In this document: piece after piece, positions 953 to 53,351 of the stretch | How the letters are laid out: each line of letters begins with the position of its first letter | Numbering within the stretch: position 1 is the first letter of the stretch | Source: Syntrophomonadaceae bacterium | GTDB lineage: Bacteria > Bacillota > Syntrophomonadia > Syntrophomonadales > Syntrophomonadaceae | Length of the DNA stretch: 53,351 nt | Assembly: GCA_012718855.1 (NCBI GenBank) | Contig: JAAYBS010000029.1 | Coordinates: 1-53,351, forward strand | Reading direction: 5' to 3' | The notes under the pieces: model-generated | Databases searched by the model: none | Told to the model about the DNA's origin: nothing | What the model saw: only the letters and a program-made list of their open reading frames with translations | Position numbers and translations under genes: made by a program

Positions 953-2746
953 TCAGCCTAAGTTAATATTCTTCATAAACAGCTCCTGGAACTGCGGTTC
1001 CAGAGCCAAATCTATATATTTGATACGTTGTTGATAATCTACAGCACGTCTGGCATAATCTTTATCTAATAAAGCAGCAATTGCTCCTGTCATAGCAGCA
1101 TTCCCCAACAGTTTTACTTTTGATGGCAAAACTGGTGGCAGTAATCCTATTTCTATAACATTTAAAATATCAACTGCCTGACCAAATGCACCGGCCAGAT
1201 AAATATGGTCTAAATCCTGCCAGTTCATTTGGGCTCTATTTAATAATATATCGATGCCGGTACGAATAGCTGCTTTAGCCAATTGCACCTGCCTGATATC
1301 TTCAATAGTAAAAACCAGACGTTCATCACTATGCTCATTGCTATCAGTCAGGGAAAAACCATTTGCATATAAAGCATAACTTTCACCCTTTTCAGTTACT
1401 GCTCCTGACTGATCAATGTAACCAGCCCTCAGTAGAACTGCCAGCATATCTAAAATTGCTGATCCGCAAATACCACGAGGTACTCCCGAACCCAAAACAT
1501 TGAACTGTATTTCTTCTGTTTCCGTAAGCCAAATCCGATCTATAGCCCCGCTGGTGGCTCTCATGCCACAACTTATATTGCCACCTTCCAAAGCCGGGCC
1601 TGCAGCAGTCGATGTAGCCCACATAGCCTTTCCATCTGCCAGAATAATTTCACCATTGGTTCCAATATCAATAAATATATATCTTTTTGCTTTAGAAGGC
1701 AGCGCCAATAACCCTGCTACTGCATCGGCTCCCACAAATCCTCCCGCCTGAGGAAGAATTATAAGCGGTGATTGTCCCCCGGCCTGAAGACCTAAAGAAG
1801 CAGCAGACATTTCAATACTATCCAGGAATAATCCCGCATAAGGCGCAGATGCAAAACCATTTACCTTAAGATTCATAAACAGATGCAGCATCACTGGATT
1901 ACCTGCCACTGTATAACGATAAACATCATCACCGGTAGCCTCAGCCTGTTTTAAAACATCTTCAATCATGCTGTTAACATTATTGAGTAAAATCTGATGT
2001 AATTTCTCCAATCCATCCTCATGTTCCAAACAGTAACTTACACGACTTATAATATCAGCACCATAAATCCTTTGCATATTAGTCTTTGATATTACCCCCA
2101 CTACCTGACCATCAACCAGATTAATTAATGAAACTAATAAACTGGTAGTTCCCAAATCCAGAGCAATGCCATAGGCAGGTTTTTCATAGCGACCAGCATA
2201 CAACAAATACTTATTATCCAATATCAACCCAATTAACTCTAAAGAAGGCCGACCTTCCCGGTCTAATCCGGCTAACTCATTCAGATTATTGACTGTAATC
2301 TGAAACTCCAGTTCAGGTAAAGCTTGACGAATACGCTGATAAATAGGTTGGGGATTTTGCTTATCCAGACCCGGTATAAAGAAATTACGAAACTGAGCTG
2401 CCTTTTTGCCGGTTGCTATTTTAGCCATTGAATTTGCAGATATATCATCCGTCATATAGGGAAGTTGAACATCTACCGTTCCCATTACCCTGCTATAACA
2501 GGCTAATCTATCTCCGCTGCTTAATTCATCCGGTAATAATTTGGCTTTTTCTTCCTCAGTAATAGGACTAAGTTCACCACTTACACGCACTTTGCATTTT
2601 CCGCAGGTTCCCCTACCCCCACACTCAGTTGCAAAACCTGAAACTGAAACAGCCAGTACCTCCCAGAGACTTTTACCAATCGGAGCCCATTGCGAGTAAC
2701 TAGTGCCATCAGCAGCTATTAAATTTACTTTCACCTGTTCCTGCAT
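953..2746 (-). CDS. RACo-like [2Fe-2S] ferredoxin fused to an ASKHA domain
   Basis: This 597-aa protein starts with a plant-type ferredoxin domain. Cys42, Cys48 and Cys51 (C-x5-C-x2-C) and Cys83 are the likely cluster ligands. A linker (about 100-190) is followed by an actin-like ATPase fold: ALDLGTTS near 195, FIDIGTNGE near 357 and an AGAFG loop near 515. Known members (RACo, DUF4445 family) use ATP to drive electrons to the cobalt of corrinoid methyltransferases. No corrinoid protein or methyltransferase is encoded in this window, so its partner is unknown. GGGGG lies upstream of the ATG. It is cytoplasmic and probably monocistronic. Confidence 0.87.
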   Translation of the reverse strand: MQEQVKVNLIAADGTSYSQWAPIGKSLWEVLAVSVSGFATECGGRGTCGKCKVRVSGELSPITEEEKAKLLPDELSSGDRLACYSRVMGTVDVQLPYMTDDISANSMAKIATGKKAAQFRNFFIPGLDKQNPQPIYQRIRQALPELEFQITVNNLNELAGLDREGRPSLELIGLILDNKYLLYAGRYEKPAYGIALDLGTTSLLVSLINLVDGQVVGVISKTNMQRIYGADIISRVSYCLEHEDGLEKLHQILLNNVNSMIEDVLKQAEATGDDVYRYTVAGNPVMLHLFMNLKVNGFASAPYAGLFLDSIEMSAASLGLQAGGQSPLIILPQAGGFVGADAVAGLLALPSKAKRYIFIDIGTNGEIILADGKAMWATSTAAGPALEGGNISCGMRATSGAIDRIWLTETEEIQFNVLGSGVPRGICGSAILDMLAVLLRAGYIDQSGAVTEKGESYALYANGFSLTDSNEHSDERLVFTIEDIRQVQLAKAAIRTGIDILLNRAQMNWQDLDHIYLAGAFGQAVDILNVIEIGLLPPVLPSKVKLLGNAAMTGAIAALLDKDYARRAVDYQQRIKYIDLALEPQFQELFMKNINLG

Positions 2747-2794
2747 TAATTTATTCCCCCGTCAATACACTGATATGATTGTCTTCAAAATAAC

Positions 2795-2818
2795 AAAAAG
2801 GCGGCTATACGCCGCCTA
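2795..2818 (-). terminator. Rho-independent terminator
   Basis: A GGCGGC/GCCGCC stem with a 5-nt loop is followed on the minus strand by TTTTTG. It lies 13 nt beyond the stop codon of the small membrane protein gene at 2831. Confidence 0.85.
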
Positions 2819-2830
2819 TTCCGTTCATGA

Positions 2831-3160
2831 TTATTCAGCTTTAGTCTCCGCCATTAAGGCAAAGGCAAAGATAAATACCCATACTAAAGATAACAAAAGT
2901 GCATTGGTAGCAGTTGACCAGTTATTACTTTCTAAAATCGCTTTATTCCCCATCGAATAATAAACATTAAATCCGACCATACCAATTCCGGTAAGAATAT
3001 AGATAGCCTTTTTTGCCCCTGCGGATAGCTCAAATTTCTTTGCCCAACTACAAAACTTTAGGAAAATGAATATCCCCAACGCTACCATCAATAAAGTGAC
3101 AAGCGGATTGGAAAACAGGCCAGAACCTCCTGCTGAAGCCGAACCAAAAATTGCCAACAC
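2831..3160 (-). CDS. Small hydrophobic membrane protein, function unknown
   Basis: I do not recognise this 109-aa protein. It has three likely membrane segments, at about residues 17-36, 48-66 and 86-104. A short basic stretch (WAKKFELSAGAKK) joins the first two, and the end is acidic (AETKAE). The start is GTG at 3160, supported by a G-rich Shine-Dalgarno (GAGGGGGGTG) 5-6 nt away. It has its own terminator and lies divergent from rnpB. Composition and ribosome binding site make it a convincing gene, but no catalytic motif is visible. Confidence 0.75.
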   Translation of the reverse strand: MLAIFGSASAGGSGLFSNPLVTLLMVALGIFIFLKFCSWAKKFELSAGAKKAIYILTGIGMVGFNVYYSMGNKAILESNNWSTATNALLLSLVWVFIFAFALMAETKAE

Positions 3161-3326
3161 TCTTTCACCCCCCTCTTACCAGTTTTTAATATTGTATTAC
3201 TTTTGCCAGGGCAATACAAGAAACCAAAGGGTCCCCTCTCCTACTTGTCAAGTATTCGCTATTAACATTATATTTCCTGCCTGTAAAAAATAATAATTAA
3301 CTTAAAAAGGTATAAATTTCTCTGAC

Positions 3327-3355
3327 TTTACAGCAGCGCCTTACTCATATATAAT
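3327..3355 (+). promoter_or_regulatory. Vegetative promoter of rnpB
   Basis: TTTACA (3327-3332) and TATAAT (3350-3355) are separated by 17 nt, a near-consensus sigma-A promoter. Transcription would begin about 16 nt before the first P1 helix base of RNase P RNA. Confidence 0.8.
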
Positions 3356-3377
3356 GACATAGCATAATCAATAAATA

Positions 3378-3797
3378 AAGTAAGTAAATCGGATAGTCGC
3401 GGGCTGGAAACAGTCTGAGGAAAGTCGGAGCTCCACAGGGCAGGGTGCTGGATAACGTCCAGTGGGGGTGACCTCAAGGAAAGTGCCACAGAAATAAACC
3501 GCCCGGCACTCAAAAGAATTTAATTGTTAAAAAAACAACAAATTAACCATTTCAGTCATTGTTTTTAGCAAATTAAATTGCTTTGAGTGCCGGGTAAGGG
3601 TGGAACGGTGAGGTAAGAGCTCACCAGCATTTAGGTGACTAAATGGCTAGGCAAACCCCACCTGGAGCAAGACCAAATAGAGGAACCATGGAATTGCCCG
3701 TTCCGTTCCCGGGTTAGGTCGCTTGAAGTACCAGGCAACTGGTATTCCAGATAGATGACTATCGAAAACAGAACTCCGCTTACAGATTTACTTACTT
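3378..3797 (+). ncRNA. rnpB: RNase P RNA, bacterial type A
   Basis: This is the catalytic RNA of RNase P, which matures tRNA 5' ends. The conserved core GAGGAAAGTC is at 3416-3425. Other signature blocks are present, including GGTAAGAGCTCACC, GGCAAACCCC, AGAGGAACCATGG and ACAGAACTCCGCTTA. The ends 3378-3390 and 3785-3797 are complementary over 13 bp and form P1. The P12 region is long and AT-rich: GGCACTCAAA near 3505 pairs with TTTGAGTGCC near 3583-3593, extending into further AT pairs. A promoter and terminator flank the gene, so it is an independent unit. Confidence 0.97.
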
Positions 3798-3810
3798 TAA
3801 AAATTTAGAT

Positions 3811-3850
3811 AACCAGTAGTGCTTGCTCGACATGCACTACTGGTTTTTTT
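3811..3850 (+). terminator. Rho-independent terminator of rnpB
   Basis: AACCAGTAGTGC (3811-3822) pairs perfectly with GCACTACTGGTT (3834-3845) and is followed by a T-run. It begins 14 nt after the end of P1. Confidence 0.92.
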
Positions 3851-3993
3851 ATGTAATACCATACTGAATTCATCTTAAATGTCTTTTTGCTTTTCCCCTT
3901 ATTGAATAGTTTAATATGATATAAGCCATTTTTATATGATATATTATTATGAGGGGAATTTTTTTTGCTATGACTAAAGGGGGGGGTAATAGC

Positions 3994-5352
3994 ATGAAAA
4001 TTAATGATCAGGAAATGCTTAATATTGTTGAACATATGATAGATAATCCATATATGGGAGTTATCTATGTTAATGCCAAATGCGAAATACTGGTAGTAAA
4101 TGAAACTTTTGCTGAAATATTAAGCGTAAAGACAGATGCTTTGTTGGGTAAACATATCAATGAAATAATTCCAGACTCAAGATTACCACACACAATAAAA
4201 ACTGGAGAAACCAATCTCTGTGAATTATGCATTGTGAATAACCAAAAACTAATCTCTATGCGGGTACCTATTTATAATAACGGTAAAATTGTAGGCGCTA
4301 TGTCCAAGACTCTGTTCCTGGATATCTCAACTGCCCGTAATATGATGGAATTAATTGAACCTGATAATCAATCTGCACCCATATCATCAAATAAATTTTT
4401 CGGAAAATATTGCCTGGATGATATTATCGGCAATAATGCCAAACTTTGCCGAGCCAAATCTCTTTCCTTACAAGTAGCCAACAATAACTCCAATGTTCTT
4501 ATTATTGGAGAAAGCGGAACTGGTAAAGAATTATTTGCTCATGCCATACATAATGCCGGGCAACGTAAGGATTACCCTTTTGTACGCATCAACTGTACCT
4601 GCATACCTGAGAATCTGCTGGAATCAGAACTGTTCGGCTATGAAGAAGGAGCCTTTACCGGTGCTCGTAAAGGGGGTAAAAAAGGTAAGTTTGAACTAGC
4701 CGATCGGGGAACTATTTTTTTGGATGAAATTGGTGAGATGCCTCTAAACATGCAAACCAAACTGCTTAGTTTTCTACAGGAAAAAGAATTTGAGCCGGTT
4801 GGAGCTAATTATACCATTCAATCCAACGCACGAGTTATTGCAGCTACCAATACTGATTTGGAAAAAGCCGTAGCGGAAGGTAGATTCCGTGAAGACTTGT
4901 ATTACCGCTTAAACGTAGTGTCTTTGATGTTGCCTCCTTTGCGGGATCGAATAGATGATATCTCTTTGTTAACCGAATTTCTTATAAAGAAGCTTAACCG
5001 TCAGCTGTTAACCAACATTGAAGGTATTGATATTGAAGCTTTGAAATTACTGGAAAAGTATTCCTGGCCAGGAAACATTCGCGAACTGGAAAACTTACTG
5101 GAAAGAGCTATCAACCTTGCACTTCTGGAATGTGAAAAGCGTATTATTCCTACCCACTTCCCTACTCTGCAGAATAACAAGATTGAATCCAAAACTACTC
5201 TTTCCTTAAATGAAGCAGTGGAAAACCTGGAATACCAATTAATAATGAAAACTTTGCGTTCCAATAATAACAATAAAACTGTAACTGCCAGAATGCTGGA
5301 CATACATCCTTCCGTATTATACCGCAAACTTAAAAAGTATAATTTGGCTTAA
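3994..5352 (+). CDS. Sigma-54-dependent transcriptional activator (PAS-AAA-Fis)
   Basis: This 452-aa enhancer-binding protein has an N-terminal PAS sensor domain (about residues 10-115) and an AAA+ domain (about 140-370) with Walker A GESGTGKE, the GAFTGA sigma-54 contact loop and a FLDEIGEM Walker B. It ends in a Fis-type helix-turn-helix (TVTARMLDIHPSVLYRKL). I chose ATG 3994 because a run of eight G lies 7 nt upstream. An upstream in-frame ATG at 3949 lacks such a site. It lies just before a gene pair preceded by a sigma-54 promoter, so it very likely controls thiolase and acyl-CoA dehydrogenase expression. The PAS ligand is not evident. Confidence 0.93.
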   Translation: MKINDQEMLNIVEHMIDNPYMGVIYVNAKCEILVVNETFAEILSVKTDALLGKHINEIIPDSRLPHTIKTGETNLCELCIVNNQKLISMRVPIYNNGKIVGAMSKTLFLDISTARNMMELIEPDNQSAPISSNKFFGKYCLDDIIGNNAKLCRAKSLSLQVANNNSNVLIIGESGTGKELFAHAIHNAGQRKDYPFVRINCTCIPENLLESELFGYEEGAFTGARKGGKKGKFELADRGTIFLDEIGEMPLNMQTKLLSFLQEKEFEPVGANYTIQSNARVIAATNTDLEKAVAEGRFREDLYYRLNVVSLMLPPLRDRIDDISLLTEFLIKKLNRQLLTNIEGIDIEALKLLEKYSWPGNIRELENLLERAINLALLECEKRIIPTHFPTLQNNKIESKTTLSLNEAVENLEYQLIMKTLRSNNNNKTVTARMLDIHPSVLYRKLKKYNLA

Positions 5353-5471
5353 CCGGGGCAATTTTGCATTACTATTATACCTTAACGGTCTATCTTCACA
5401 TTGGTTTTTGCAATTATGCAAAATAATATTGTTATACTGCAATAAACGTATAATTATTTTGTATCCTATCA

Positions 5472-5510
5472 GAAACGCATCCTCTCATTTTGAGAGACAT
5501 GCGTTTTTTG
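5472..5510 (+). terminator. Rho-independent terminator of the sigma-54 activator gene
   Basis: AAACGCAT and CTCTC pair with GAGAG and ATGCGTTT around an ATTTT loop, with a small internal bulge. A T6 run follows. Confidence 0.85.
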
Positions 5511-5570
5511 TTAGTTTTCTTTTATAGTCCTTCTCCTGCCTTGATAAGCCTAATTACCCATCTCTCATAT

Positions 5571-5631
5571 TGCGAATATTCAGATATTTGTTAATGCTCA
5601 ATTATTGTGCCTAAATGTCTGTATATTCGTA
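5571..5631. promoter_or_regulatory. Candidate enhancer pair for the sigma-54 activator
   Basis: TGCGAATATTCAGA (5571-5584) and TCTGTATATTCGTA (5618-5631) are inverted copies of one another, matching at 12 of 14 positions. Their centres are 47 bp apart. The nearer copy ends about 48 bp before the estimated transcription start, which is close for an upstream activating site. The pair sits between the activator gene terminator and the -24/-12 promoter. Confidence 0.5.
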
Positions 5632-5652
5632 TTTTTCTGTTATTCGAAATAA

Positions 5653-5668
5653 TGGCATAAATATTGCT
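5653..5668 (+). promoter_or_regulatory. Sigma-54 (-24/-12) promoter
   Basis: TGGCATAAATATTGCT keeps the invariant GG and GC elements exactly 10 nt apart and the flanking TGGCA/TTGCT bases. Transcription would start near 5679. A sigma-54 activator gene directly upstream supports the call. Confidence 0.8.
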
Positions 5669-5720
5669 ATGTAATTAATACATTAAAAGGGAGGTGGTAA
5701 TAATAAAAAACTTTTAAACT

Positions 5721-5761
5721 TTGCGTAGTAATCCCAAAAAGAGAGAGCGGATACTGCGCAA
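5721..5761 (+). other. Stem-loop in the thiolase mRNA leader
   Basis: TTGCGTAGTAATCC (5721-5734) pairs with GGATACTGCGCAA (5749-5761) apart from one bulged A and a G-T pair. The loop is about 14 nt and purine-rich. No T-run follows, so it is not a terminator. RNA stability or regulation is possible. Confidence 0.4.
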
Positions 5762-5863
5762 CCCGATTAATTTCAGGTTTGTGTTGATCCCCATACCATC
5801 AATAGATTAGAGATAGAAAGTATTTTGAAGCGTTTTTTATGGAGGGAAGGAGTTGATATTTTA

Positions 5864-7063
5864 GTGAATGAAGTTGTAATCGTTAGTGCATGCAGAACTG
5901 CTATCGGTAAGTTCATGGGAAGTCTTAAAGATGTCTCCGCCAAGGAACTGGCTATCACTGTCGGCAAGGCAGCAATCGAACGGGCGGGTATCTCCGCAGA
6001 TATAGTGGACGAGATAGTGGTTGGTCAGGTCTATCAACATTTACAGGGTTCGTTGGTTTCACGCCAGATTGCTATGGCAGTTGGACTGCCCGTAAGCAGT
6101 AATGCCTGTAATGTTAATCAAAACTGCGCCTCGGGAATGAGGGCGCTGGAAATTGCCTGTAATAATATAATCCTGGGTAAAACCGAAATTGGTCTGGTAA
6201 TTGGGGTGGAAAATATGACCAATACCCCCTATTTACTCCCCAAAGCCCGCATGGGATATCGTATGGGCCCTGGAACCATCGAGGACAGCATGATTCATGA
6301 CGGTCTGTATGATGGAATGGTTCCTGGTCATATGGGTATTACCGCTGAGAATATTGCTGAACAATATGGAATTACACGTGAAGAGTGTGATCAATTGGCA
6401 GTAATGAGTCATCAAAGAGCTACGCGGGCAGTTCAGGAAGGTATTTTTAAACGCGAAATAGTTCCGGTCGAAATCAAGAGTAAAAAAGGTGTGCTTTTAT
6501 ATGAGACCGATGAACACATGATTCCTGATGCTAACCTTGAAACTATGGCCAAATTGCCTTCCGCTTTCAAAAAAGGTGGCGTTGTAACTGCAGCTAATGC
6601 TTCGGGAATTAATGATGCCGCTGCAGCTGTAGTAGTCATGTCCAAACAGAAAGCAATAGAATTAGGCATCACTCCCCTTATGAAAATGCTTACCATTAGT
6701 GCCGAAGGTGTAGACCCCAAAGTGATGGGACTCGGACCCGCAGTTGCTATTCCCAAAGCTTTAAAAGCCGCCGGATTAAAATTTGAAGATATTGAGTATT
6801 GGGAAATTAATGAGGCTTTTGCAGCCCAGTTCCTGGGAGTCGGACTTATGCTCAAGCAGGATTTTGGCATAGATCTGGATATGGAAAAATGTAACCATAA
6901 CGGTTCCGGTATTGCATTGGGTCACCCGGTTGGCTGTACTGCACTTCGTATAGTAGTATCACTTTACTATGAAATGGAGCGTCTGGGACTTACCGTCGGA
7001 GGCGCCTCCCTGTGCGTGGGTGGAGGACCCGCACTTGCCTCTCTGTGGACCAGAGATATATAA
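5864..7063 (+). CDS. Acetyl-CoA acetyltransferase (thiolase)
   Basis: This 399-aa thiolase carries out the last step of beta-oxidation (3-ketoacyl-CoA + CoA to acetyl-CoA), or the reverse condensation. Nucleophile Cys88 is in NQNCASG, His354 in ALGHPVG and Cys384 in SLCVGGG. The start is GTG 5864, which gives the normal N-terminus (NEVVIVSACRTAIGKF). AAGGAG lies 11 nt upstream. An in-frame TTG at 5825 would add 13 residues unlike the family. It is the first gene of the sigma-54-preceded pair with acyl-CoA dehydrogenase, 78 nt upstream of it. The usual C-terminal GGGxG element reads GGGPALASLW, a minor deviation. Confidence 0.93.
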   Translation: MNEVVIVSACRTAIGKFMGSLKDVSAKELAITVGKAAIERAGISADIVDEIVVGQVYQHLQGSLVSRQIAMAVGLPVSSNACNVNQNCASGMRALEIACNNIILGKTEIGLVIGVENMTNTPYLLPKARMGYRMGPGTIEDSMIHDGLYDGMVPGHMGITAENIAEQYGITREECDQLAVMSHQRATRAVQEGIFKREIVPVEIKSKKGVLLYETDEHMIPDANLETMAKLPSAFKKGGVVTAANASGINDAAAAVVVMSKQKAIELGITPLMKMLTISAEGVDPKVMGLGPAVAIPKALKAAGLKFEDIEYWEINEAFAAQFLGVGLMLKQDFGIDLDMEKCNHNGSGIALGHPVGCTALRIVVSLYYEMERLGLTVGGASLCVGGGPALASLWTRDI

Positions 7064-7074
7064 AGGTCTGCAGC

Positions 7075-7092
7075 TTCCGCTTTAAAGCGGAA
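7075..7092. other. Perfect 18-nt palindrome between thiolase and acyl-CoA dehydrogenase
   Basis: TTCCGCTTTAAAGCGGAA is fully self-complementary. It lies 11 nt after the thiolase stop, and the RNA could form a hairpin with a tight loop. The following AAATTATT is not a good termination tract, so it may be an mRNA processing or stability element, or a protein site. Confidence 0.4.
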
Positions 7093-7141
7093 AAATTATT
7101 CCGGTAAGCTATAAATTTTATGATTATGAGGAGGAGAAACA

Positions 7142-8977
7142 ATGACTGCCAATTTTGCTTATATGAATACCAGAGATCTGGAGTTTATTATTCAGGAATG
7201 GCTTCCCAGTGAAAGAGTTTTTAATTATGAGAAATTCAGGGATTACTATTCCAAGGATGATATTCGGGCCTTTCTGGCACCAATCTTAAAAATGGCCAAA
7301 GAAGTAGTAGAACCGACCAATACTGATGGTGATCAGAATCCGGTAAGATTAGTTAATGGTAAGGTTGAGCTGCCCAGAAGCTTTGGGCCGTTATTTAAAA
7401 AACTGCAGTCAGAAGGCTGGGGTACCAGTAATATAGACCGGTCTGAAGACTCCTATGTAATGCCTCATCTGCTGAATGGAGCAGTAATGGAATTGTTATG
7501 TGCTGCCAATCCTACTTTTTATCCCTACATTTTGCTGACCAGCGGTTCAGCTGATTTGATACAAACTTTTGGTACAGAGGAACTAAAAGAAAAGTTTTTA
7601 CCCAAAATGATGGATGGTACCTGGGCCGGCACCATGTGTTTGACTGAACCCAGTGCCGGTTCTGATGTTGGAGATATTCTCTCCAAAGCTTATCCAACTG
7701 ATGAACCCGGAATTTTTAAAATCAAAGGGCAAAAAATATTTATCACCGGTGGTGATAATGACTTTACCGAAAATATTATTCATCTATATCTGGCCCGGGT
7801 TGAAGGAGCCAAAGCTGGTACCGGCGGTATTTCATTATTCGTTGTTCCCAAGTTCTGGGTCAATGCTGACGGGACTCTGTCCGATAATGATGTAATTACT
7901 ACCGGGGTAGAGCATAAACTGGGTCAGCATGGATCCTGTACTGCTGCCCTGTCCTTTGGTGAGAATGGAAGTTGCCGCGGCTGGTTGCTGGGTAAAAACC
8001 CTCTGGAAAATGAAGGTCGTGGAGAAGGTATGGCGCAAATGTTCCAAATGATGAACCTGGCCCGCATGGAAACCGGGCATATGGCCCACTGCTGTGTTGC
8101 CAATGCCTTTTATAATGTCCGTGATTATGCGCGGGATAGAATTCAGGGCAGGCCTTTTACCAATCCCCGTGGTGAAAGAATAGCCATTATTAATCATGAA
8201 GACATTCGTCGTACCCTGATTATGGGTAAAGCTCACACTGAAGCATTCCGAGCTATGATAATGAAGGCCATGTTCTTCTTTGACGTTCGTGAACATGATC
8301 CTGACCCGCAGGAGAGGGAAAAAGCCCAGCAATATCTGGATGTTATTACGCCTCTATGTAAAGCTTATCCCAGTGATGAAGGCTGGTGGCTTTGTGGTGA
8401 AGCTATCCAGGCTTATGGAGGATATGGGTATTGTGAAGAGTATCCGGTAGCCCAGATTGCCCGTGATATTAAAATATATTCCATCTGGGAAGGAACCAAC
8501 TTCATTCAATCTATGGATTTAATTGGCCGTAAGATGGGTATGGGAAGAGGAGCAGTCTTCGCCGCCTTCCTTTCCGAAGCCAGAAATTTCACCACTGAAA
8601 ACCGTTATACAACCGGATTGGAAAAAGAATTCCGTAATTTGGACCGGGCCCTGGTAAGTGCTGACAAGATGCTTACCTGTCTGGTCGACTTTAGAAATAA
8701 CAATCCCACCATGATACCAGTTTTCGGCCGACGGGTATTAACTGCCATATCTCAATTACATTGTTCACATATACTGCTGGATATGGCCTGTGTTGCTCTA
8801 CGGAGGATAAAAGAAACAGGTACAGAACATCATGATTACAATTTCTATGTAGGTAAAATCGAGGCCGCCAAATGGTATCTGCGCAATGTTACTCCCAGCA
8901 TTGAATATATTTCCCATATTATTTGTGACCGTGATACCTCTGCTCTTGATATACCTCTCGAAGCTTTTGATTATTAA
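7142..8977 (+). CDS. Acyl-CoA dehydrogenase, long form
   Basis: This is a 611-aa FAD-dependent acyl-CoA dehydrogenase (acyl-CoA to 2-enoyl-CoA). The flavin/substrate motif MCLTEPSAGSD is at 165-175. The late motif IWEGTNFIQ holds Glu450, where family members place the catalytic base. About 150 residues follow, so it belongs to the long class with an extra C-terminal helical domain rather than the roughly 380-aa short-chain class. AGGAGGAG lies just before the ATG. It is cotranscribed with thiolase and closed by a strong terminator. No electron-transfer flavoprotein gene is present here, so the acceptor is not visible. Confidence 0.93.
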   Translation: MTANFAYMNTRDLEFIIQEWLPSERVFNYEKFRDYYSKDDIRAFLAPILKMAKEVVEPTNTDGDQNPVRLVNGKVELPRSFGPLFKKLQSEGWGTSNIDRSEDSYVMPHLLNGAVMELLCAANPTFYPYILLTSGSADLIQTFGTEELKEKFLPKMMDGTWAGTMCLTEPSAGSDVGDILSKAYPTDEPGIFKIKGQKIFITGGDNDFTENIIHLYLARVEGAKAGTGGISLFVVPKFWVNADGTLSDNDVITTGVEHKLGQHGSCTAALSFGENGSCRGWLLGKNPLENEGRGEGMAQMFQMMNLARMETGHMAHCCVANAFYNVRDYARDRIQGRPFTNPRGERIAIINHEDIRRTLIMGKAHTEAFRAMIMKAMFFFDVREHDPDPQEREKAQQYLDVITPLCKAYPSDEGWWLCGEAIQAYGGYGYCEEYPVAQIARDIKIYSIWEGTNFIQSMDLIGRKMGMGRGAVFAAFLSEARNFTTENRYTTGLEKEFRNLDRALVSADKMLTCLVDFRNNNPTMIPVFGRRVLTAISQLHCSHILLDMACVALRRIKETGTEHHDYNFYVGKIEAAKWYLRNVTPSIEYISHIICDRDTSALDIPLEAFDY

Positions 8978-9131: not shown

Positions 9132-10481
9132 TTAAATCCGGTTAGTGCGACGCCAGATATTCATGCGGTTTGCTTCCTGAATTAATTGGTCACGAAATTG
9201 TGGATGAGCTATTTCTATTAACATTTCAGCCCTTTCCCAGGTGGGTTTACCTTTGAGCCGGGCTTTACCATATTCAGTTACGATAAAATCAACTGCTGTA
9301 CGCGGTGTGGTAACGATACTGCCCGGAGTCAATATAGGAGCTATACGGGAATGTATCTCCCCATTGCGGTCTTTATAGGTACTGCTCAAACACAAGAAGC
9401 TTTTGCCGCCCCTTGAATACCAGGCACCGGTTATAAAATCCAATTGACCACCTGTTCCTGATATATGGCGAGTACCCGCGCTTTCTGAACATATCTGGCT
9501 AAATAAATCTACCTGAACTATATTGTTGATTGCCACCACGCGATCATTCATGGCGATTACTTTGGGATTATTGGTATATCGGCCACAATGACTGGCCATT
9601 AAAGGATTTTGATGCATAAAATCATAGGTCTTACGGGTTCCTAAAACAAAGGAAAAGGCAATTTTCCCCCTATCAGTAGTCTTATACTTCCCGGTTGCTA
9701 CTCCTTCCTGAAATAAGCGAGTCATTGAATCGGTATACATCTCGGTATGAATCCCCAGGTCTTTTAAACCTGCCTCACATAATAGTTCTCCCAATAGGTT
9801 AGGTAATGCTCCTATTCCTAATTGCAGACAGGAACGATCACCAATTTCCTCCAAAATGAGCCTGGCCATCTTTTGATCTATTTCCGTTGGTTGTTTGGCG
9901 GGCGGAAGCTCAAATAAAGGTGTATTGTTGCCTTCAATAATATAATCAACCATGGAAATATGCACTGAATCCTCAGAACCTCCTGGTATACGGGGAATGT
10001 TCTCGTTAACTTCCAGAATAACCTTGGTTGCCTTCAGGCAACCTTCAAAACTATATGTATTAGCCGGACCAAAGGAGAAAAAACCATATTGATCCATAGG
10101 GCTGACCTGTTGAACATAATAATCAATTCGAAAAGTTTCATTGGAAATAACGTCCTGCAACTGGCTGAATTGAATAGGCATATAGAACATATTACCCTGA
10201 TCATGCAACCTTCTGTCCTGAACACCAAAAAACCAATTGTTACAGGTGAATTTTTCCGGTCCCTGTAGAGGTGTTTGCATTATTGGTTCAGCCATGGTGC
10301 CGCAACAAAATATTTGAACATCATTAATTTCCTGACCTCGTTTAGCTAATTCGTTATCAAATTCGACTGGCCGACCTAAAAAAGTCGCATAGAGTAAAAC
10401 ATCACCTGATTGAATCAATTTTGCCGCCTGCTCAGCATTAATAAGCTTGTCCCGGTATTGAGAATTAAAATCTTTATTCAA
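9132..10481 (-). CDS. Acetyl-CoA hydrolase/CoA-transferase family protein
   Basis: This 449-aa protein belongs to the family of 4-hydroxybutyrate CoA-transferase and butyryl-CoA:acetate CoA-transferase (ACH1/Cat1 fold). Glu247 in GIHTEM matches the catalytic glutamate that forms the glutamyl-CoA thioester. LQLGIGALPN (219-228) and SGTGGQLDF (about 344) form the CoA-binding loops. In a fatty-acid oxidiser it could activate butyrate with acetyl-CoA, but the exact acyl donor cannot be read. The start is TTG 10481, with AGGGGGG about 8 nt upstream. It is convergent with the acyl-CoA dehydrogenase operon and probably monocistronic. Confidence 0.9.
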   Translation of the reverse strand: MNKDFNSQYRDKLINAEQAAKLIQSGDVLLYATFLGRPVEFDNELAKRGQEINDVQIFCCGTMAEPIMQTPLQGPEKFTCNNWFFGVQDRRLHDQGNMFYMPIQFSQLQDVISNETFRIDYYVQQVSPMDQYGFFSFGPANTYSFEGCLKATKVILEVNENIPRIPGGSEDSVHISMVDYIIEGNNTPLFELPPAKQPTEIDQKMARLILEEIGDRSCLQLGIGALPNLLGELLCEAGLKDLGIHTEMYTDSMTRLFQEGVATGKYKTTDRGKIAFSFVLGTRKTYDFMHQNPLMASHCGRYTNNPKVIAMNDRVVAINNIVQVDLFSQICSESAGTRHISGTGGQLDFITGAWYSRGGKSFLCLSSTYKDRNGEIHSRIAPILTPGSIVTTPRTAVDFIVTEYGKARLKGKPTWERAEMLIEIAHPQFRDQLIQEANRMNIWRRTNRI

Positions 10482-11212: not shown

Positions 11213-12238
11213 TTAATCAATAATTTCTATAATTTGAATATTGCGTTCCAATAACAGATTGTAAAATTTATCTTGTACTCTTACTATTGGCCTGGTAGGT
11301 TGAGCAGGGTCAACAAAGATAACCACGCCAACTTCATTATTTGATAATAGAACTTCATTACCAATATAAAAATTAGCGATTTTATCATAAAATACTTTAG
11401 TAATGCGGGGATCAAGTCTTCCAAAAGACTCCTGCCACAAAATTTCTGCTGCTACATAGGGGGAAGAACGAGTTGAATAGCTGCGGGTGGAAGTAATCGC
11501 ATCATAAACATCTGCCACTGCTACAACTGCAGCATGGAAATGGGCATTATAGCCCTTGTTTCCCATTGGATAACCTGAACCATCTGCTCTTTCATGATGT
11601 AAAAGTATGGCATTGGCAATATCATAATTAACCTCAGGATTCTCAATTGCCAGTTGATAGCCAATTTTAGGATGTTTTTTTATCTCATTGAATTCATCTT
11701 CTGTTAGTTTGCCGGGCTTGTTTAAAATTTCGTCTTTAATAAATACTTTACCCAGGTCATGTAGCAAGCCAGCCGTACCTAATTCCTTAATAGTTTTTTC
11801 ATCGCATTTTAACCAGCGGCCGATCAATATACTTAACATAGCTACATTTACAGAATGTGTAAATAGATAATCATCCTTATCTTTCATAAGCCGCATCTGA
11901 CGAAACAAATCATTTTCATCAAAGACCTGATTAAACAATATATCGGTAGTCTGAACAATTTCCTCCATTTCAAGAGGTTTACCCAATTTGGCTTCCAACA
12001 TAAATGATCTGACTACATGCAGGGAATGCTGATATACTTCCGGGAAAGGTTTTTCAGAGCGGGGGCGTGCAGTAGTTTCATTAATATATACTTCTGAAAT
12101 ATTTCGGGCAGCAAGGCTATTAAGATGCTCATCGGTAACTACTGTACCCCGGGGTAGTAATAGCTGAGAATCATAACTATATAAATCTTTTCCCAATTTG
12201 GCACCCGGTTTCAAATTGCTAACCTTTATTTTTAACAT
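11213..12238 (-). CDS. HD-GYP domain protein, probable cyclic-di-GMP phosphodiesterase
   Basis: This 341-aa protein has an N-terminal domain (about 1-110) without recognisable catalytic residues and an HD-GYP domain (about 115-300). The metal ligands and signature are intact: His128, HD at 160-161, HHE from 214, and GYP at 222-224. This suggests hydrolysis of cyclic di-GMP or a related dinucleotide. There is no transmembrane segment or receiver domain, so the input signal is unknown. AGAGGGG lies 7 nt before the ATG. It stands between hup and the Nif3/TrmK pair with gaps on both sides, so it is likely monocistronic. Confidence 0.9.
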   Translation of the reverse strand: MLKIKVSNLKPGAKLGKDLYSYDSQLLLPRGTVVTDEHLNSLAARNISEVYINETTARPRSEKPFPEVYQHSLHVVRSFMLEAKLGKPLEMEEIVQTTDILFNQVFDENDLFRQMRLMKDKDDYLFTHSVNVAMLSILIGRWLKCDEKTIKELGTAGLLHDLGKVFIKDEILNKPGKLTEDEFNEIKKHPKIGYQLAIENPEVNYDIANAILLHHERADGSGYPMGNKGYNAHFHAAVVAVADVYDAITSTRSYSTRSSPYVAAEILWQESFGRLDPRITKVFYDKIANFYIGNEVLLSNNEVGVVIFVDPAQPTRPIVRVQDKFYNLLLERNIQIIEIID

Positions 12239-15772: not shown

Positions 15773-15783
15773 GGATTAACGAG

Positions 15784-15872
15784 ACAAAGGGGAGCTGAAC
15801 TAATTCGGCTGAGAGTGGACTGGTTGGTCCTGACCCTAAACCTGATCTGGGTAATGCCAGCGTAGGGATCAA
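15784..15872 (+). promoter_or_regulatory. TPP (THI element) riboswitch aptamer
   Basis: The aptamer is recognised by the THI-box blocks GGGGAGC, GGCTGAGAG, GACCCT, ACCTGATCTGGGTAATGCCA and GCGTAGGGA in canonical order. It binds thiamine pyrophosphate. The bases ACAAA at 15784 and TTTTGT at 15875-15880 can extend helix P1. It stands before a thiamine-binding protein and ABC transporter, which fits repression of thiamine uptake when TPP is plentiful. Confidence 0.97.
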
Positions 15873-15885
15873 TATTTTGTGATTC

Positions 15886-47639: not shown

Positions 47640-48086
47640 CTATATCAATTCCTGAAATCCTTTTAACACTTCCGGTACTGCTCCTATAGCCTTTACTACC
47701 ACAAAAATCGTATCGTCACCGGCTACTGTGCCCAGGATATTGGGAATATCTGAGGAATCTATTACTGAAGCTACCGATTGGGCACCACCTGGCAAGGTTT
47801 TAATAACAATCAGGTTTTCACTGTAATCCATGGTAATGACTGAATCACTGAAAATCCGGCGTAACCTTTCCTGGGAACGGGTAATGTTAGCCGCATCCGG
47901 CAGAGCATAACGATAACCTTCATCATCGGGGATCTTGATTAATTGCAATTCTTTTATATCTCGCGATACGGTTGCCTGTGTTACGGCAAAGCCATTTTCC
48001 TGCAGGGCTTCACATAATTCATCCTGGGTGGCGATTCGCTGGTTGGAAATAATCTCGGTAATGGTGAAATGTCGTTTAAGTTTCAT
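47640..48086 (-). CDS. argR: Arginine repressor ArgR/AhrC
   Basis: This 148-aa regulator has a winged helix-turn-helix (1-70) with QATVSRDIKELQL and a C-terminal arginine-binding, hexamerising domain. That domain contains GTVAGDDTIFVV (the GTIAGDDT-like signature) near 120. It represses arginine synthesis and activates catabolism. The ATG overlaps the mnmM stop codon as TAATG, and its Shine-Dalgarno GGAGG lies in the last mnmM codons. No arg genes lie in the window. Confidence 0.95.
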   Translation of the reverse strand: MKLKRHFTITEIISNQRIATQDELCEALQENGFAVTQATVSRDIKELQLIKIPDDEGYRYALPDAANITRSQERLRRIFSDSVITMDYSENLIVIKTLPGGAQSVASVIDSSDIPNILGTVAGDDTIFVVVKAIGAVPEVLKGFQELI

Positions 48087-48667: not shown

Positions 48668-49482
48668 TCTTCACTCCTTCTGATGCGAGCTTCTATTTGA
48701 TAAAAGAACAAGCTTGGTTTAAGTTTAATCATTTTCAGTTTAAAAGGAGCCGGTGAAACTTTTATTACCTGATCGATTTCCAATGCGGTTTGCACCTGAC
48801 CATCCACACATACTGCCGCATCAACCCCTGACAAATATTTTATTGCCACCCGTTTGGAAGCATCCAAAACCATGGGACGTTTATATGAAGCATGTGGGGC
48901 TATAGGAGTGATAAGAAGTACTTCAATATCAGGATCAGTTATTGGTCCTCCACAGGATAAGGAATAACCGGTCGAGCCGGTAGGAGTTGATACAATCATT
49001 CCATCACCGCGATAATTGGCAGTTAATTGTCCATCTATTTCCAGATCAAAACCTACCATGAGCGGGGATGTGGAGCGAAAGGCGACTTCATTAAGACAGT
49101 AGGACTGAAAAACAACTTCTCCGTGTTTTAAAACCTGGCAATCAAGCATCAGCCTTTCACTGAAACTATATTGGCCTTTGATTAAAGGCTCCAGATATTC
49201 GTCTACCTCTGATAATTCCAGTTTACTTAAAAATCCGATCCGGCCCATATTAATACCTAATAGCGGAATTCCCATGACTGCATAATAACGTGCAGTACGT
49301 AATATAGTGCCATCACCGCCTAAAACTATTGCCAAATCAGCATCTTCTATCTGCACCGGCGGACTGAAAGCGTGTCGCCGTATAACTTCAAGATTATACT
49401 TTGCCAGCTTCCCTGCCATTTCCTGAGCTACTGACTCGGTTTCCGGCCTATTCTGATTATTAATCAGGAGTACTTTTTTCAC
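48664..49482 (-). CDS. nadK: NAD kinase
   Basis: This 272-aa enzyme makes NADP from NAD. GGDGTILR (near 58) holds the catalytic Asp, and later motifs are FRSTSPLMVGFDLEI and YRGDGMIVSTPTGSTGYSLS. The start is GTG 49482, with GGAGG 8 nt upstream. It overlaps tlyA by 23 bp and the following mnmM by 4 bp. The product NADPH supports isoprenoid and nucleotide synthesis. Confidence 0.95.
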   Translation of the reverse strand: MKKVLLINNQNRPETESVAQEMAGKLAKYNLEVIRRHAFSPPVQIEDADLAIVLGGDGTILRTARYYAVMGIPLLGINMGRIGFLSKLELSEVDEYLEPLIKGQYSFSERLMLDCQVLKHGEVVFQSYCLNEVAFRSTSPLMVGFDLEIDGQLTANYRGDGMIVSTPTGSTGYSLSCGGPITDPDIEVLLITPIAPHASYKRPMVLDASKRVAIKYLSGVDAAVCVDGQVQTALEIDQVIKVSPAPFKLKMIKLKPSLFFYQIEARIRRSED

Positions 49483-50293
49483 TACCCTTACCTCCAAGTT
49501 GCAAATGAGCATGCTCTACTACCTGGTCGATAATACCACCAATATTATCCAGAGGGGACTCAGCTGCTGTCAATTTTAGAAAATACTCTATATTCCCCTG
49601 TGGTCCCTTAATAGGTGAATAAGTTATCCCCGTACAATTAAGACCGGCAACTGATGCACTATTTACACAGGACTTGAGAACTTCCCGATGAATTTCAGGC
49701 TCTCTTACGACTCCCTTTTTCCCTACCCGGTCTTTACCGGCTTCAAACTGCGGCTTCACGAGGCAAATGACTATTCCGGTTTTATTCAATAACCCTGGGA
49801 TTACCGGAAATACCAGTCCCAGTGAAATAAAGGAAACATCTATGGTAATCAAATCAGCCAACTCAGGAATTAGTTCAGGTTCTATGTATCGGATATTGGT
49901 TCTTTCCAGGTTTACCACCCGGGGATCATTTCTGAGCGTCCAATCAAGTTGTCCATAACCGACATCTACAGCGTAAACCTTACGGGCACCTGACTGCAGA
50001 ATACAATCTGTGTAGCCGCCGGTTGAAGCGCCTATATCTATTACTACCTTATCCTTTGCATCGATCTGAAATTCATGCAAAGCTTTTTCCAGTTTAAATC
50101 CTCCCCGACTGACAAACCTTCGTCCGGTAGAAATAATCTCCACCTGCGCCTCTTCATCAACTGATGTGCCTGGCTTATCAACTCTTTGCCCATTTACATG
50201 TACCTGTCCGGCTAAAATATAAGCGCGGGCCTTTTCTCTGCTGGAGGCCAGCCCCTGGGAATATAGCAGTGTATCCAGCCTAACTTTCGCCAA
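49460..50293 (-). CDS. tlyA: TlyA family rRNA (cytidine-2'-O)-methyltransferase
   Basis: This 277-aa protein joins an N-terminal S4 RNA-binding domain (1-60) to an FtsJ/RrmJ-like methyltransferase. Motif I is IDIGASTGGYTDCILQ near 85, then VDVGYGQL, and LVKPQFEAGKD near 180. TlyA makes 2'-O-methylcytidine in rRNA and is known as hemolysin A in older annotation. It starts at TTG 50293, inside the end of dxs (14-bp overlap) and without a clear Shine-Dalgarno, so it is translationally coupled. Confidence 0.93.
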   Translation of the reverse strand: MAKVRLDTLLYSQGLASSREKARAYILAGQVHVNGQRVDKPGTSVDEEAQVEIISTGRRFVSRGGFKLEKALHEFQIDAKDKVVIDIGASTGGYTDCILQSGARKVYAVDVGYGQLDWTLRNDPRVVNLERTNIRYIEPELIPELADLITIDVSFISLGLVFPVIPGLLNKTGIVICLVKPQFEAGKDRVGKKGVVREPEIHREVLKSCVNSASVAGLNCTGITYSPIKGPQGNIEYFLKLTAAESPLDNIGGIIDQVVEHAHLQLGGKGSEKSTPD

Positions 50294-52196
50294 ATTTGAG
50301 CAACTCCCAACCAGCAGAATTATTTACCAGTTCCGGCCAGCGGTTAATGACCTTTTCCAGCAAAGCTTCCGCATTCATATCCAGATAATCAAATAATATA
50401 TCTACTCTGCCATGTTCCACAAACTCATCCGGTATTCCTGCCCTTAATATCTGGGAAGGCAAACCTTCCTCCTGTAATATTTCCAGAACTGTACTTCCAA
50501 AACCTCCCTGCAGGACATTGTCTTCAATGGTAACTATACGCCCACATTTTTGAGCAATTGATTTTATACAGGGTTTATCTATCGGTTTAACAAAACGTGC
50601 ATCAACCAGAGTAGCTGAAATATTATACTCCGCAGCCAACTGTACCAAATCCCGGGCAAAAGAAACTCCCCGGCCAATTCCAATAACGGCCAGATCGTCT
50701 CCCGTAGCTAAAATTTTTGCTTGTCCAATGGGAATAGTTTCTTCTTCATCAGTTGCTGCTGCCCCCTGTCCAATTCCACGCGGATAGCGAATAGCTACCG
50801 GACCTGATATCGTAAATGCAGTATTAAACATTTTTATCAATTCATTTTCATCTGCTGGAGCCATAACCGTTAAATTAGGAATACTGCGTAGATACGATAA
50901 ATCAAAAACCCCATGATGGGTGGCTCCATCCTCACCCACCAAACCTGCCCGATCAATGGCCAGAATAACCGGCAGATTCTGCAGGGCTACATCCTGTACA
51001 ATCTGATCATAGGCTCGCTGTAAAAAAGTTGAGTAAATTGCTACTACCGGACGCAAACCTGCCCTTGCCATACCTGCTGCCAGAGTGACTGCATGAGGTT
51101 CACAAATACCAACATCAAAAAATCTATCCGGATATTGCCGGGCAAATGGTGCCAGCCCGGTTCCGCTTGCCATTGCAGCAGTAATGGCAATTACTCTGGG
51201 ATCAATGGCCGCCCGGTTAAGCATAAACTCGCCAAATATTTCCGTATAAGTTTTAACACTTTTCCTGGGCTGCTGTCCGGTGTTAATATCAAAGGGCCCA
51301 ATACCATGAAACACATCCGGTTTTTCCAGAGCCGGAGCATAACCCCTGCCCTTCTGGGTGATTACATGTATAAAAACCGGGCCTTTCATTTTTGCCGCAT
51401 TGGTCAAAACCTGAATAAGTTCTTCCAAATTATGTCCATTTACCGGTCCAATGTACGTAAAACCGAGTTCCTCAAATAATATACCCGGAACCATTAAATA
51501 TTTAACCATATCCTTAAATCTACCTGCAGCCCTGGCAATATTGGGACCTATAGCTGGAATGCGATGCAGAGCGGTTTCAATTTCATCTTTAGTACGGGAA
51601 TATGAGGGGTCAGTACGCAACCGATTCAAATAAGCTGACATAGCCCCAACATTACGGGAAATGGACATCTCATTATCATTTAATATTACCGTAAAATCAT
51701 GATCTTCCTGTCCAGCATGATTCAAGGCTTCAAAAGCCATGCCTCCAGTTAAAGCCCCATCGCCAATCACTGCCAGCACCGAATGTTTCTCTTTCTTTAT
51801 ATCCCGGGCAATGGCCATGCCCAGGGCAGCTGATATGGAAGTACTGCTATGTCCGGTATTATAAGCATCATGTTCGGATTCTTCATTTTTGGGAAAGCCA
51901 CTTATGCCGCCGTATTGTCTTAAAGTAGGCATTTGATGTTGTCTGCCGGTTAATATTTTATGCACATAACTCTGGTGTCCTACATCCCAAATGATTTTAT
52001 CTGTGGGAGTATTATAAACGTAGTGAAGTGCCAGAGTTAATTCTACCACGCCAAGGTTAGCTGCCAGATGTCCCCCACATTGAGAAACACTGTTAACCAG
52101 AAGTTGCCTGATTTCTTCTGCCAGCATATTAATGGAAGCCATATCCATACCTTTTAAGTCTTGTGGAGAGTTAATTGATTGCAAAATACTGTTCAT
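50280..52196 (-). CDS. dxs: 1-deoxy-D-xylulose-5-phosphate synthase
   Basis: This 638-aa TPP enzyme carries out the first step of the MEP isoprenoid pathway (pyruvate + glyceraldehyde-3-phosphate). AVIGDGALTGGMAFEALNHAG near 145-165 is the TPP motif. VGHQSYVHKILTGR (about 76) and a transketolase pyrimidine-binding domain, including DRAGLVGEDGATHHG (about 420), follow. The preferred start is ATG 52196, with AAAGG 8 nt upstream. A GTG at 52205, overlapping the oapA stop as GTGA, is possible. It follows the OLE RNA and oapA, the usual OLE context. Confidence 0.97.
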   Translation of the reverse strand: MNSILQSINSPQDLKGMDMASINMLAEEIRQLLVNSVSQCGGHLAANLGVVELTLALHYVYNTPTDKIIWDVGHQSYVHKILTGRQHQMPTLRQYGGISGFPKNEESEHDAYNTGHSSTSISAALGMAIARDIKKEKHSVLAVIGDGALTGGMAFEALNHAGQEDHDFTVILNDNEMSISRNVGAMSAYLNRLRTDPSYSRTKDEIETALHRIPAIGPNIARAAGRFKDMVKYLMVPGILFEELGFTYIGPVNGHNLEELIQVLTNAAKMKGPVFIHVITQKGRGYAPALEKPDVFHGIGPFDINTGQQPRKSVKTYTEIFGEFMLNRAAIDPRVIAITAAMASGTGLAPFARQYPDRFFDVGICEPHAVTLAAGMARAGLRPVVAIYSTFLQRAYDQIVQDVALQNLPVILAIDRAGLVGEDGATHHGVFDLSYLRSIPNLTVMAPADENELIKMFNTAFTISGPVAIRYPRGIGQGAAATDEEETIPIGQAKILATGDDLAVIGIGRGVSFARDLVQLAAEYNISATLVDARFVKPIDKPCIKSIAQKCGRIVTIEDNVLQGGFGSTVLEILQEEGLPSQILRAGIPDEFVEHGRVDILFDYLDMNAEALLEKVINRWPELVNNSAGWELLKFGES

Positions 52197-52201
52197 AACT
52201 T

Positions 52202-52849
52202 TCACCTTTTATCATTAAACAATTCCATACCGGTAAGGTCCTCCCACCGGGCCATAATCACTGCGACTCTAAAAATAATAGCATTGGCATGATCAATGGC
52301 TACTTTCTTTCCAGCCGCTTTACCACCTACAGTTAAGGCAGCTATAAGACTGGTCATCATTCCCCCCAATATAAACAGATCGACGGTACCAAACCAGTCG
52401 ACCAGACTTAAAACTATACCTGCTCCGATAGCTCCACTTAGAGTACCAGCTATATCACCAATTACATCATTGCAAAAGTTAGCCACTTTGCTGGCGTTCC
52501 TGGTTATTTTAACCGCCTGCCGGGCACCATATACTTTTTTGGCTGCCCTGGCATTAAACGGCGGTAAAACTGCTGCCGTCGCAGCCGTTCCAATCATATC
52601 AAAAAATACCCCAACCAGAATTATTAATATTAACAACGGAATAGATACCAATACACTGTTAACAGCACTTACCAGACTTTCTGCTCCGATACTGACCAGT
52701 AAGGCAATGAAAAAAGTAAAAAAGGTAACTGTCAGTGCTGATATCAAAACATTTTTATCATTAAAAATATGGGTCCGCAACAATAAGTAATTTACCTCCA
52801 TAAAAAACAATCTGGCAAAAGGTTGTCTGTTGAGTAAACGCTGCGACAT
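52202..52849 (-). CDS. oapA: OLE-associated membrane protein OapA
   Basis: The open frame codes up to 215 aa with four membrane helices, near 35-58, 64-84, 136-156 and 163-185. A strongly basic stretch between helices 2 and 3 (PPFNARAAKKVYGARQAVKI, then TRNASKVANFCNDVIGDI) is well suited to RNA binding. Four helices, size, and the position between a large structured RNA and dxs identify OapA. The real start may be ATG 52801 or TTG 52783. GGAGG at 52799-52795 precedes the latter and would give 193 aa, near the known 21 kDa. The ATG at 52849 lies at the RNA end without a good Shine-Dalgarno. Confidence 0.85.
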   Translation of the reverse strand: MSQRLLNRQPFARLFFMEVNYLLLRTHIFNDKNVLISALTVTFFTFFIALLVSIGAESLVSAVNSVLVSIPLLILIILVGVFFDMIGTAATAAVLPPFNARAAKKVYGARQAVKITRNASKVANFCNDVIGDIAGTLSGAIGAGIVLSLVDWFGTVDLFILGGMMTSLIAALTVGGKAAGKKVAIDHANAIIFRVAVIMARWEDLTGMELFNDKR

Positions 52850-52857
52850 AGGTCCAG

Positions 52858-53351
52858 CAGGTTTTCCCCGTGGAGCTCCCGACTGTTGCCAGAGGGGCGG
52901 TTTCCCTTTATGTCCACATTACCGCGTCACCGCAAGTAAGGCTGGATTACCACTTAGTGCACACTTTAATCCTCAACAAACCGTGCCAAAGCACACAGTC
53001 TAGGAGTTTTCCTCAACAACCCACATTAATTTCTAGCCTCTTTTGCAGTATACGGTTTCAAAGCAGATAACAAATCCTTGGCCGAGGTATTTGGTACCCA
53101 TTAATGCTTATCCGCCGCCACCACTCAAGGCAGGCTACACTGCACCCAGCTTTCACCAAATGCAGGTTTTCTTAGTAAAGCTTAAAACTTACTAAGCCTC
53201 CACGGGTGCGGGGTCAGACTCCACATGCCGTTGCGGAATGCCCCATCACCCTTAACTCCCAGCAAAGACCCCTGACTGGGCGTCAAAAGCCGATACCAGA
53301 ATCTTCATCGATGTGCCATTTACGGATTTTTAGGCCCGTCTTTGAAATTAA
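52858..53351 (-). ncRNA. ole: OLE RNA (ornate, large, extremophilic), 5' end outside window
   Basis: The last 494 nt have no credible ORF on the minus strand and are denser in GC-rich helices than the rest of the window. A long-range helix pairs CCCGTGGAG (minus strand, + coordinates 53198-53206) with CTCCACGGG (52867-52875). Local hairpins include CTTAGTAA/TTACTAAG (about 53171-53196) and CTGCA/TGCAG (about 53140-53165). OLE RNA is about 600 nt and lies upstream of a 4-helix protein and dxs in Firmicutes, exactly as here. About 100 or more nt of the 5' part must lie past the window end. I identify it from context and structure, not from an alignment. Confidence 0.85.

Follow-up and report, generated by a model that had tools for sequence, protein, structure and literature searches.

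OLE is a large, intricately folded bacterial RNA whose biochemical role is still unknown. Members of its Rfam family, such as those of Halalkalibacterium halodurans, Clostridium acetobutylicum and C. botulinum, lie 5' of oapA within a folD/xse/ispA...dxs/tlyA/argR/recN run of genes, and the locus described here has the same arrangement. A survey of GTDB species found OLE in 2,822 Bacillota species, the Syntrophomonadaceae clade very likely among them, and the relation between OapA and the MpfA transporters has also been published (PMC11332333). None of the papers searched links OLE RNA with Syntrophomonas. The only one among them to mention both OLE RNA and Syntrophomonadaceae describes a soda-lake metatranscriptome in which OLE reads account for about 1% of ncRNA, and in the excerpt consulted it leaves these reads unassigned to that family (PMC6704655).

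The DNA analysed here, called the window, is a stretch of 53,351 nt that forms the entire contig C229 of a metagenome-assembled genome (83% complete, 231 contigs) from a Syntrophomonadaceae bacterium. A cmscan search against Rfam matched OLE (RF01071) at 52803-53351 on the minus strand with 438.2 bits (E=2e-125, model positions 43-616), far above the gathering cut-off of 50 bits. A preliminary description of this DNA had proposed that a structured, ORF-poor stretch before oapA encodes OLE. The stretch is real and its identity is supported by covariance score, covariation and gene linkage, while its boundary lies at 52803, about 47 nt nearer oapA than the 52850 given before. The window RNA is 549 nt long and lacks the first 42 model positions, since the window takes up an entire contig of an incomplete assembly. 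Judged from the 590-nt OLE of a sister species of the same genus (L002), its true 5' end lies about 41 nt past the contig edge. The same RF01071 search gave no second OLE locus elsewhere in the genome and no OLE in any of 14 control genomes. A coding gene instead of the RNA was considered, namely a 66-aa ORF at 52870-53070 on the other strand, and rejected as this ORF overlies strongly covarying helices. We are highly confident that the locus pairs a genuine OLE RNA gene of the ordinary kind with the gene for OapA, its membrane partner; the RNA adds one unexceptional new member to a known family, and the OLE-oapA locus is probably functional. The protein-coding part of the locus comprises:

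52795-52799, minus strand: oapA Shine-Dalgarno (GGAGG), some 12 nt past helix P1
52202-52783, minus strand: oapA, UUG start, 193 aa, four predicted transmembrane helices, suggested CNNM-like fold
50280-52205, minus strand: dxs (TIGR00204, E=1.1e-253), overlapping the oapA stop
49460-50293, minus strand: tlyA (TIGR00478, E=9.3e-83)
47640-48086, minus strand: argR, assigned by reading the ORF list

Within the dxs-tlyA-nadK-mnmM-argR-recN run named in the preliminary description, dxs and tlyA are thus backed by family models, and nadK, mnmM, argR and recN by reading of the ORF list. For dxs, the ATG two codons inside the listed GTG is the likelier start. ArgR has been mentioned as an unpublished OLE-binding candidate (PMC12265935).

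Further information about the RNA was obtained by aligning it with 43 complete OLE RNAs from the same family (n=44). The Rfam structure was laid on this alignment, and P1, P2, P3.1 and P3, unpaired in the Rfam structure line, were added. These helices are named in the published OLE model (PMC12265935); the strands that would form them here are our own assignment. Standard pairs occupy 92.2% of 7,943 cells, compared with 38-44% for slid structures, a control that preserves the relatedness of the sequences. Double changes occur in 93 of 183 pairs against a shuffled mean of 60.8, and 0 of 500 shuffles reach 93, counts that should not be read as probabilities, given that the RNAs are related. P3 and P3.1 together are paired in 98.6% of cells, with 9 of 15 pairs doubly changed, and P1 in 97.3%, with 8 of 12 pairs changed on both sides; the family-level alignment of 44 RNAs independently supports P1 and P3/P3.1. 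The 9-bp helix joining bases about 330 nt apart, noticed in the earlier reading, is real and covaries. It is P3, the stem proposed by Lyon and Breaker to cross the membrane (PMC12265935), but only 8 bp of it lie inside the window, and the base missing from the ninth pair is supplied in relatives. The 5' strands of P1, P2 and P3.1 fall past the contig end. The elements located in the window are:

53344-53351, minus strand: 5' strand of P3, pairing with 53026-53033
53324-53334, minus strand: A-rich loop of P4, CCUAAAAAUCC, all 44 sequences agreeing in 10 of 11 columns
53274-53284, minus strand: loop of the P5 region, GACGCCCAGUC, GCCC invariant in 44 sequences
53224-53233, minus strand: loop of the P6 region, CAACGGCAUG, GGC invariant in 44 sequences
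53077-53084, minus strand: terminal loop of P9 with palindromic GGCC, invariant in 44 sequences
53026-53033, minus strand: 3' strand of P3, a covarying long-range helix
53017-53022, minus strand: 3' strand of P3.1, its 5' strand past the contig and present in L102
52884-52891, minus strand: GNRA-type loop of P13, UGGCAACA, in the region of the published OapB site
52812-52823, minus strand: 3' strand of P1, 12 bp with the RNA 5' end past the contig

We matched the window loops by eye to the published dimer contacts, of which the A-rich loop of P4 is one in cryo-EM models (PMC12265935/PMC12286853). GCC in the P5 loop is complementary to GGC in the P6 loop, a candidate intermolecular kissing pair, and the GGCC loop of P9 is a candidate self-kissing contact. 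All of these candidate dimer-contact loops are present and essentially invariant (n=44), and the P13 loop follows the pattern U-GG[CU][AG]AC-[AG] in 44 of 44 sequences. The window RNA therefore shares fold, conserved loops and OapB-site loop with Rfam OLE, and differs from it by the loss of its 5' end at the contig edge. Other differences are found throughout Syntrophomonadaceae: P7 has about 8 bp where the Rfam consensus stem is longer (the whole RNA measuring 582-600 nt), P1 reaches 12 bp, and P3 plus P3.1 amount to 15 pairs, whereas "typically 12" is given for published OLE (PMC12265935).

The protein encoded downstream is OapA, as argued by its adjacency to OLE, its homologues, its four helices and its predicted CNNM-like fold. 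Its earlier description as a four-helix protein with a basic loop is borne out, but the start is UUG 52783, and AUG 52849 lies inside OLE. Since the sister species L002 has compensating indels between the equivalents of these two codons, the stretch from AUG 52849 to UUG 52783 is non-coding. An AlphaFold model built on a 46-member alignment (pLDDT 82) contains four long helices, of which the second and third flank the basic KK/RK-rich segment. OapA shares 46% identity with an Alteribacillus protein linked to OLE and 39% with a Carboxydothermus homologue, and homologues adjoin OLE in the loci of relatives, including these two. When the model was compared with the PDB by Foldseek, the top four matches were chains of the archaeal CNNM protein MtCorB (7m1t; prob 1.00, TMq 0.47-0.54), at weak E values of 0.05-0.35, and the remaining matches had prob <=0.1. 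A CNNM-like fold closest to MtCorB is thus suggested by the model. The Pfam CNNM model matches 34 of 46 OapA relatives (best E 6e-8); the window protein itself gives nothing above threshold in Pfam or NCBIfam, neither of which holds a dedicated OapA model. An OapA profile run against PDB sequences returned only chance matches to viral spike coiled coils and was set aside. With MpfA/CorC/CNNM transporters OapA would share the transmembrane fold, but it lacks CBS and CorC_HlyC domains: MpfA proteins combine CNNM, CBS and CorC_HlyC, whereas OapA is a 193-aa transmembrane domain alone.

The UUG start of oapA is conserved. Assigning starts by Shine-Dalgarno and alignment (L030-L048, L095-L115 and window 52783), we found UUG at 37 of the 38 family loci whose start is clean, and at 47 of 52 once outgroups are counted too; for dxs at these loci the figure is 3 of 26 (Fisher p 4e-13, a value that ignores shared ancestry). 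A strong Shine-Dalgarno precedes the oapA UUG in family loci. Such a conserved weak start codon predicts dosage control, by which OapA may be limited relative to the RNA.

How the RNA and protein might act together is suggested by work on H. halodurans and by cryo-EM of clostridial OLE. Two OLE RNAs would dimerise via the conserved P4, P5/P6 and P9 loops; OapA would anchor the dimer to the membrane beside P3, with OapB gripping P13 and OapC binding a k-turn. The particle may then modulate divalent-metal handling and other responses under membrane or energy-state stress. To these steps we add that the OLE-OapA pair would act in trans, and that translation of oapA from a weak UUG just behind the closing helix P1 would keep OapA scarce in relation to the RNA. 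As a whole, this mechanism is proposed tentatively, at somewhat less than an even chance of being right.

The same layout could be read as a chiefly cis-acting leader that controls oapA-dxs expression, without any trans particle. Indeed, about 12 nt separate the end of P1 from the oapA Shine-Dalgarno, OLE lies directly 5' of oapA in almost all family loci, and the whole run of genes points in one direction, with genes overlapping. However, two species of one genus (g9) keep an intact OLE directly before dxs (L116, L117), while their oapA has been relocated beside an enoyl-CoA hydratase-like gene (L122:1379-1945, L123:1110-1676), where it appears to begin with UUG too. Invariance also extends to candidate dimer and protein sites that lie a long way from the 3' end, and trans phenotypes and protein partners have been published for H. 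halodurans. We consider it very unlikely that the RNA works chiefly as a leader. A trans-acting OLE-OapA pair is supported, since g9 retains an intact OLE with oapA unlinked.

OLE species typically carry none or one MpfA-type transporter, OLE and MpfA tending to exclude each other (PMC11332333). Two full-length CNNM-CBS-CorC (MpfA-type) proteins are encoded in the present genome (L026:1465-2814 and L027:781-1962), and by our count at least one full-length CNNM protein occurs in 27 of 44 OLE-positive and 9 of 10 OLE-negative family genomes. This coexistence argues mildly against simple replacement. It could instead be taken to mean that the OLE copy is decaying, dispensable thanks to these transporters, were it not that the window RNA keeps its conserved elements, covariation is strong and retention in the family near-universal. 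Decay is accordingly extremely unlikely, and we keep to a maintained OLE-OapA pair. A TerC/YkoY(MeeY)-like gene (L027:2468-3241) adjoins the second CNNM gene; in H. halodurans, OLE defects are suppressed when YkoY (MeeY) is overexpressed (PMC11332333, PMC10898510).

That the OLE match runs to the last base of a metagenome contig might raise the thought of an assembly artefact or chimeric edge, which has next to no chance of being correct given 90% DNA identity to L002 over 4.66 kb spanning the junction, a gene order common to the family, and the end of contig C41 inside xseA, as the L002 order predicts for the missing piece. In L002, whose OapA is 91% identical to that of the window, the order is folD-xseA-xseB-ispA-OLE-oapA-dxs-tlyA-nadK (upstream names read from sequence). 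C41, the upstream part in the window genome, ends at base 11583, precisely where the match stops, and the L002 layout implies an unassembled gap of about 2.1 kb between C229 and C41. Elsewhere, the window contains a class A RNase P RNA (3381-3798, plus strand, 313 bits) and a TPP riboswitch (15778-15885, plus strand, 63 bits).

A complete OLE ribonucleoprotein had also been claimed for this organism. OapA and OapB are present, the latter on contig C93 in the order map-oapB-infA. Its best PDB match is 7k9b, "OLE-associated protein B" (E=2e-11), followed by eL14 (E 0.011), and each of the 28 good genomes of the family has OapB. OapB was located through the infA neighbourhood; the KOW Pfam model missed it, returning only an L24-like protein and noise. 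OapC (YbxF) was not found in the 83%-complete assembly, where the L7Ae match proved to be a YlxQ-type paralogue beside infB. In the sister species G011 a YbxF-type gene lies between rpoC and rpsL, and our assembly lacks this rpoC-ybxF-rpsL-rpsG-fusA block altogether, its one match being an EF-G paralogue of 69% identity. We know of no bacterium that can do without rpsL, so the missing block is an assembly gap. The OLE particle also counts bS21 among its protein partners. A complete particle in this organism is probable. The infB frame (L025:423-1853) carries in its N-terminal part a long Q/P/R-rich near-tandem repeat (QQRPQQGQ...).

OLE was found in 44 of 54 family genomes, and in 26 of the 28 of good quality; the homologues in the 43 family genomes other than ours are full-length. 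At the order level it is present in two families and absent from a third, f3, in 4 of 4 genomes (G058-G061). All four f3 genomes are good, one being a single contig, and this clade-wise absence is useful for profiling. The suggestion that the present copy extends the ecological range of OLE carries little weight, because the RNA is near-universal in the family and already published from so many Bacillota species (PMC11332333). As to the probable syntrophic fatty-acid oxidiser proposed as its host, oxidation is plausible from its Syntrophomonadaceae relatives and the enzymes on the contig, and syntrophy is putative. A cluster resembling fatty-acid oxidation genes occupies 953-8977 and 9132-10481 of the window, with an AcsV-like corrinoid activator, a sigma-54 regulator, a thiolase, a 611-aa acyl-CoA dehydrogenase and a butyryl-CoA:acetate CoA-transferase-like protein.

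In summary, the biochemical function of OLE does not follow from these results by themselves, and for any mechanism past its place in the family we depend on studies of other species. The two natural unlinkings of OLE and oapA are useful for separating cis from trans roles. It is tempting to propose, as a possible but rather unlikely reading, that in Syntrophomonadaceae the OLE particle, acting in trans, belongs to the core equipment for syntrophic life at low energy, working beside MpfA and not in its place, with OapA held down by a near-invariant UUG behind P1.
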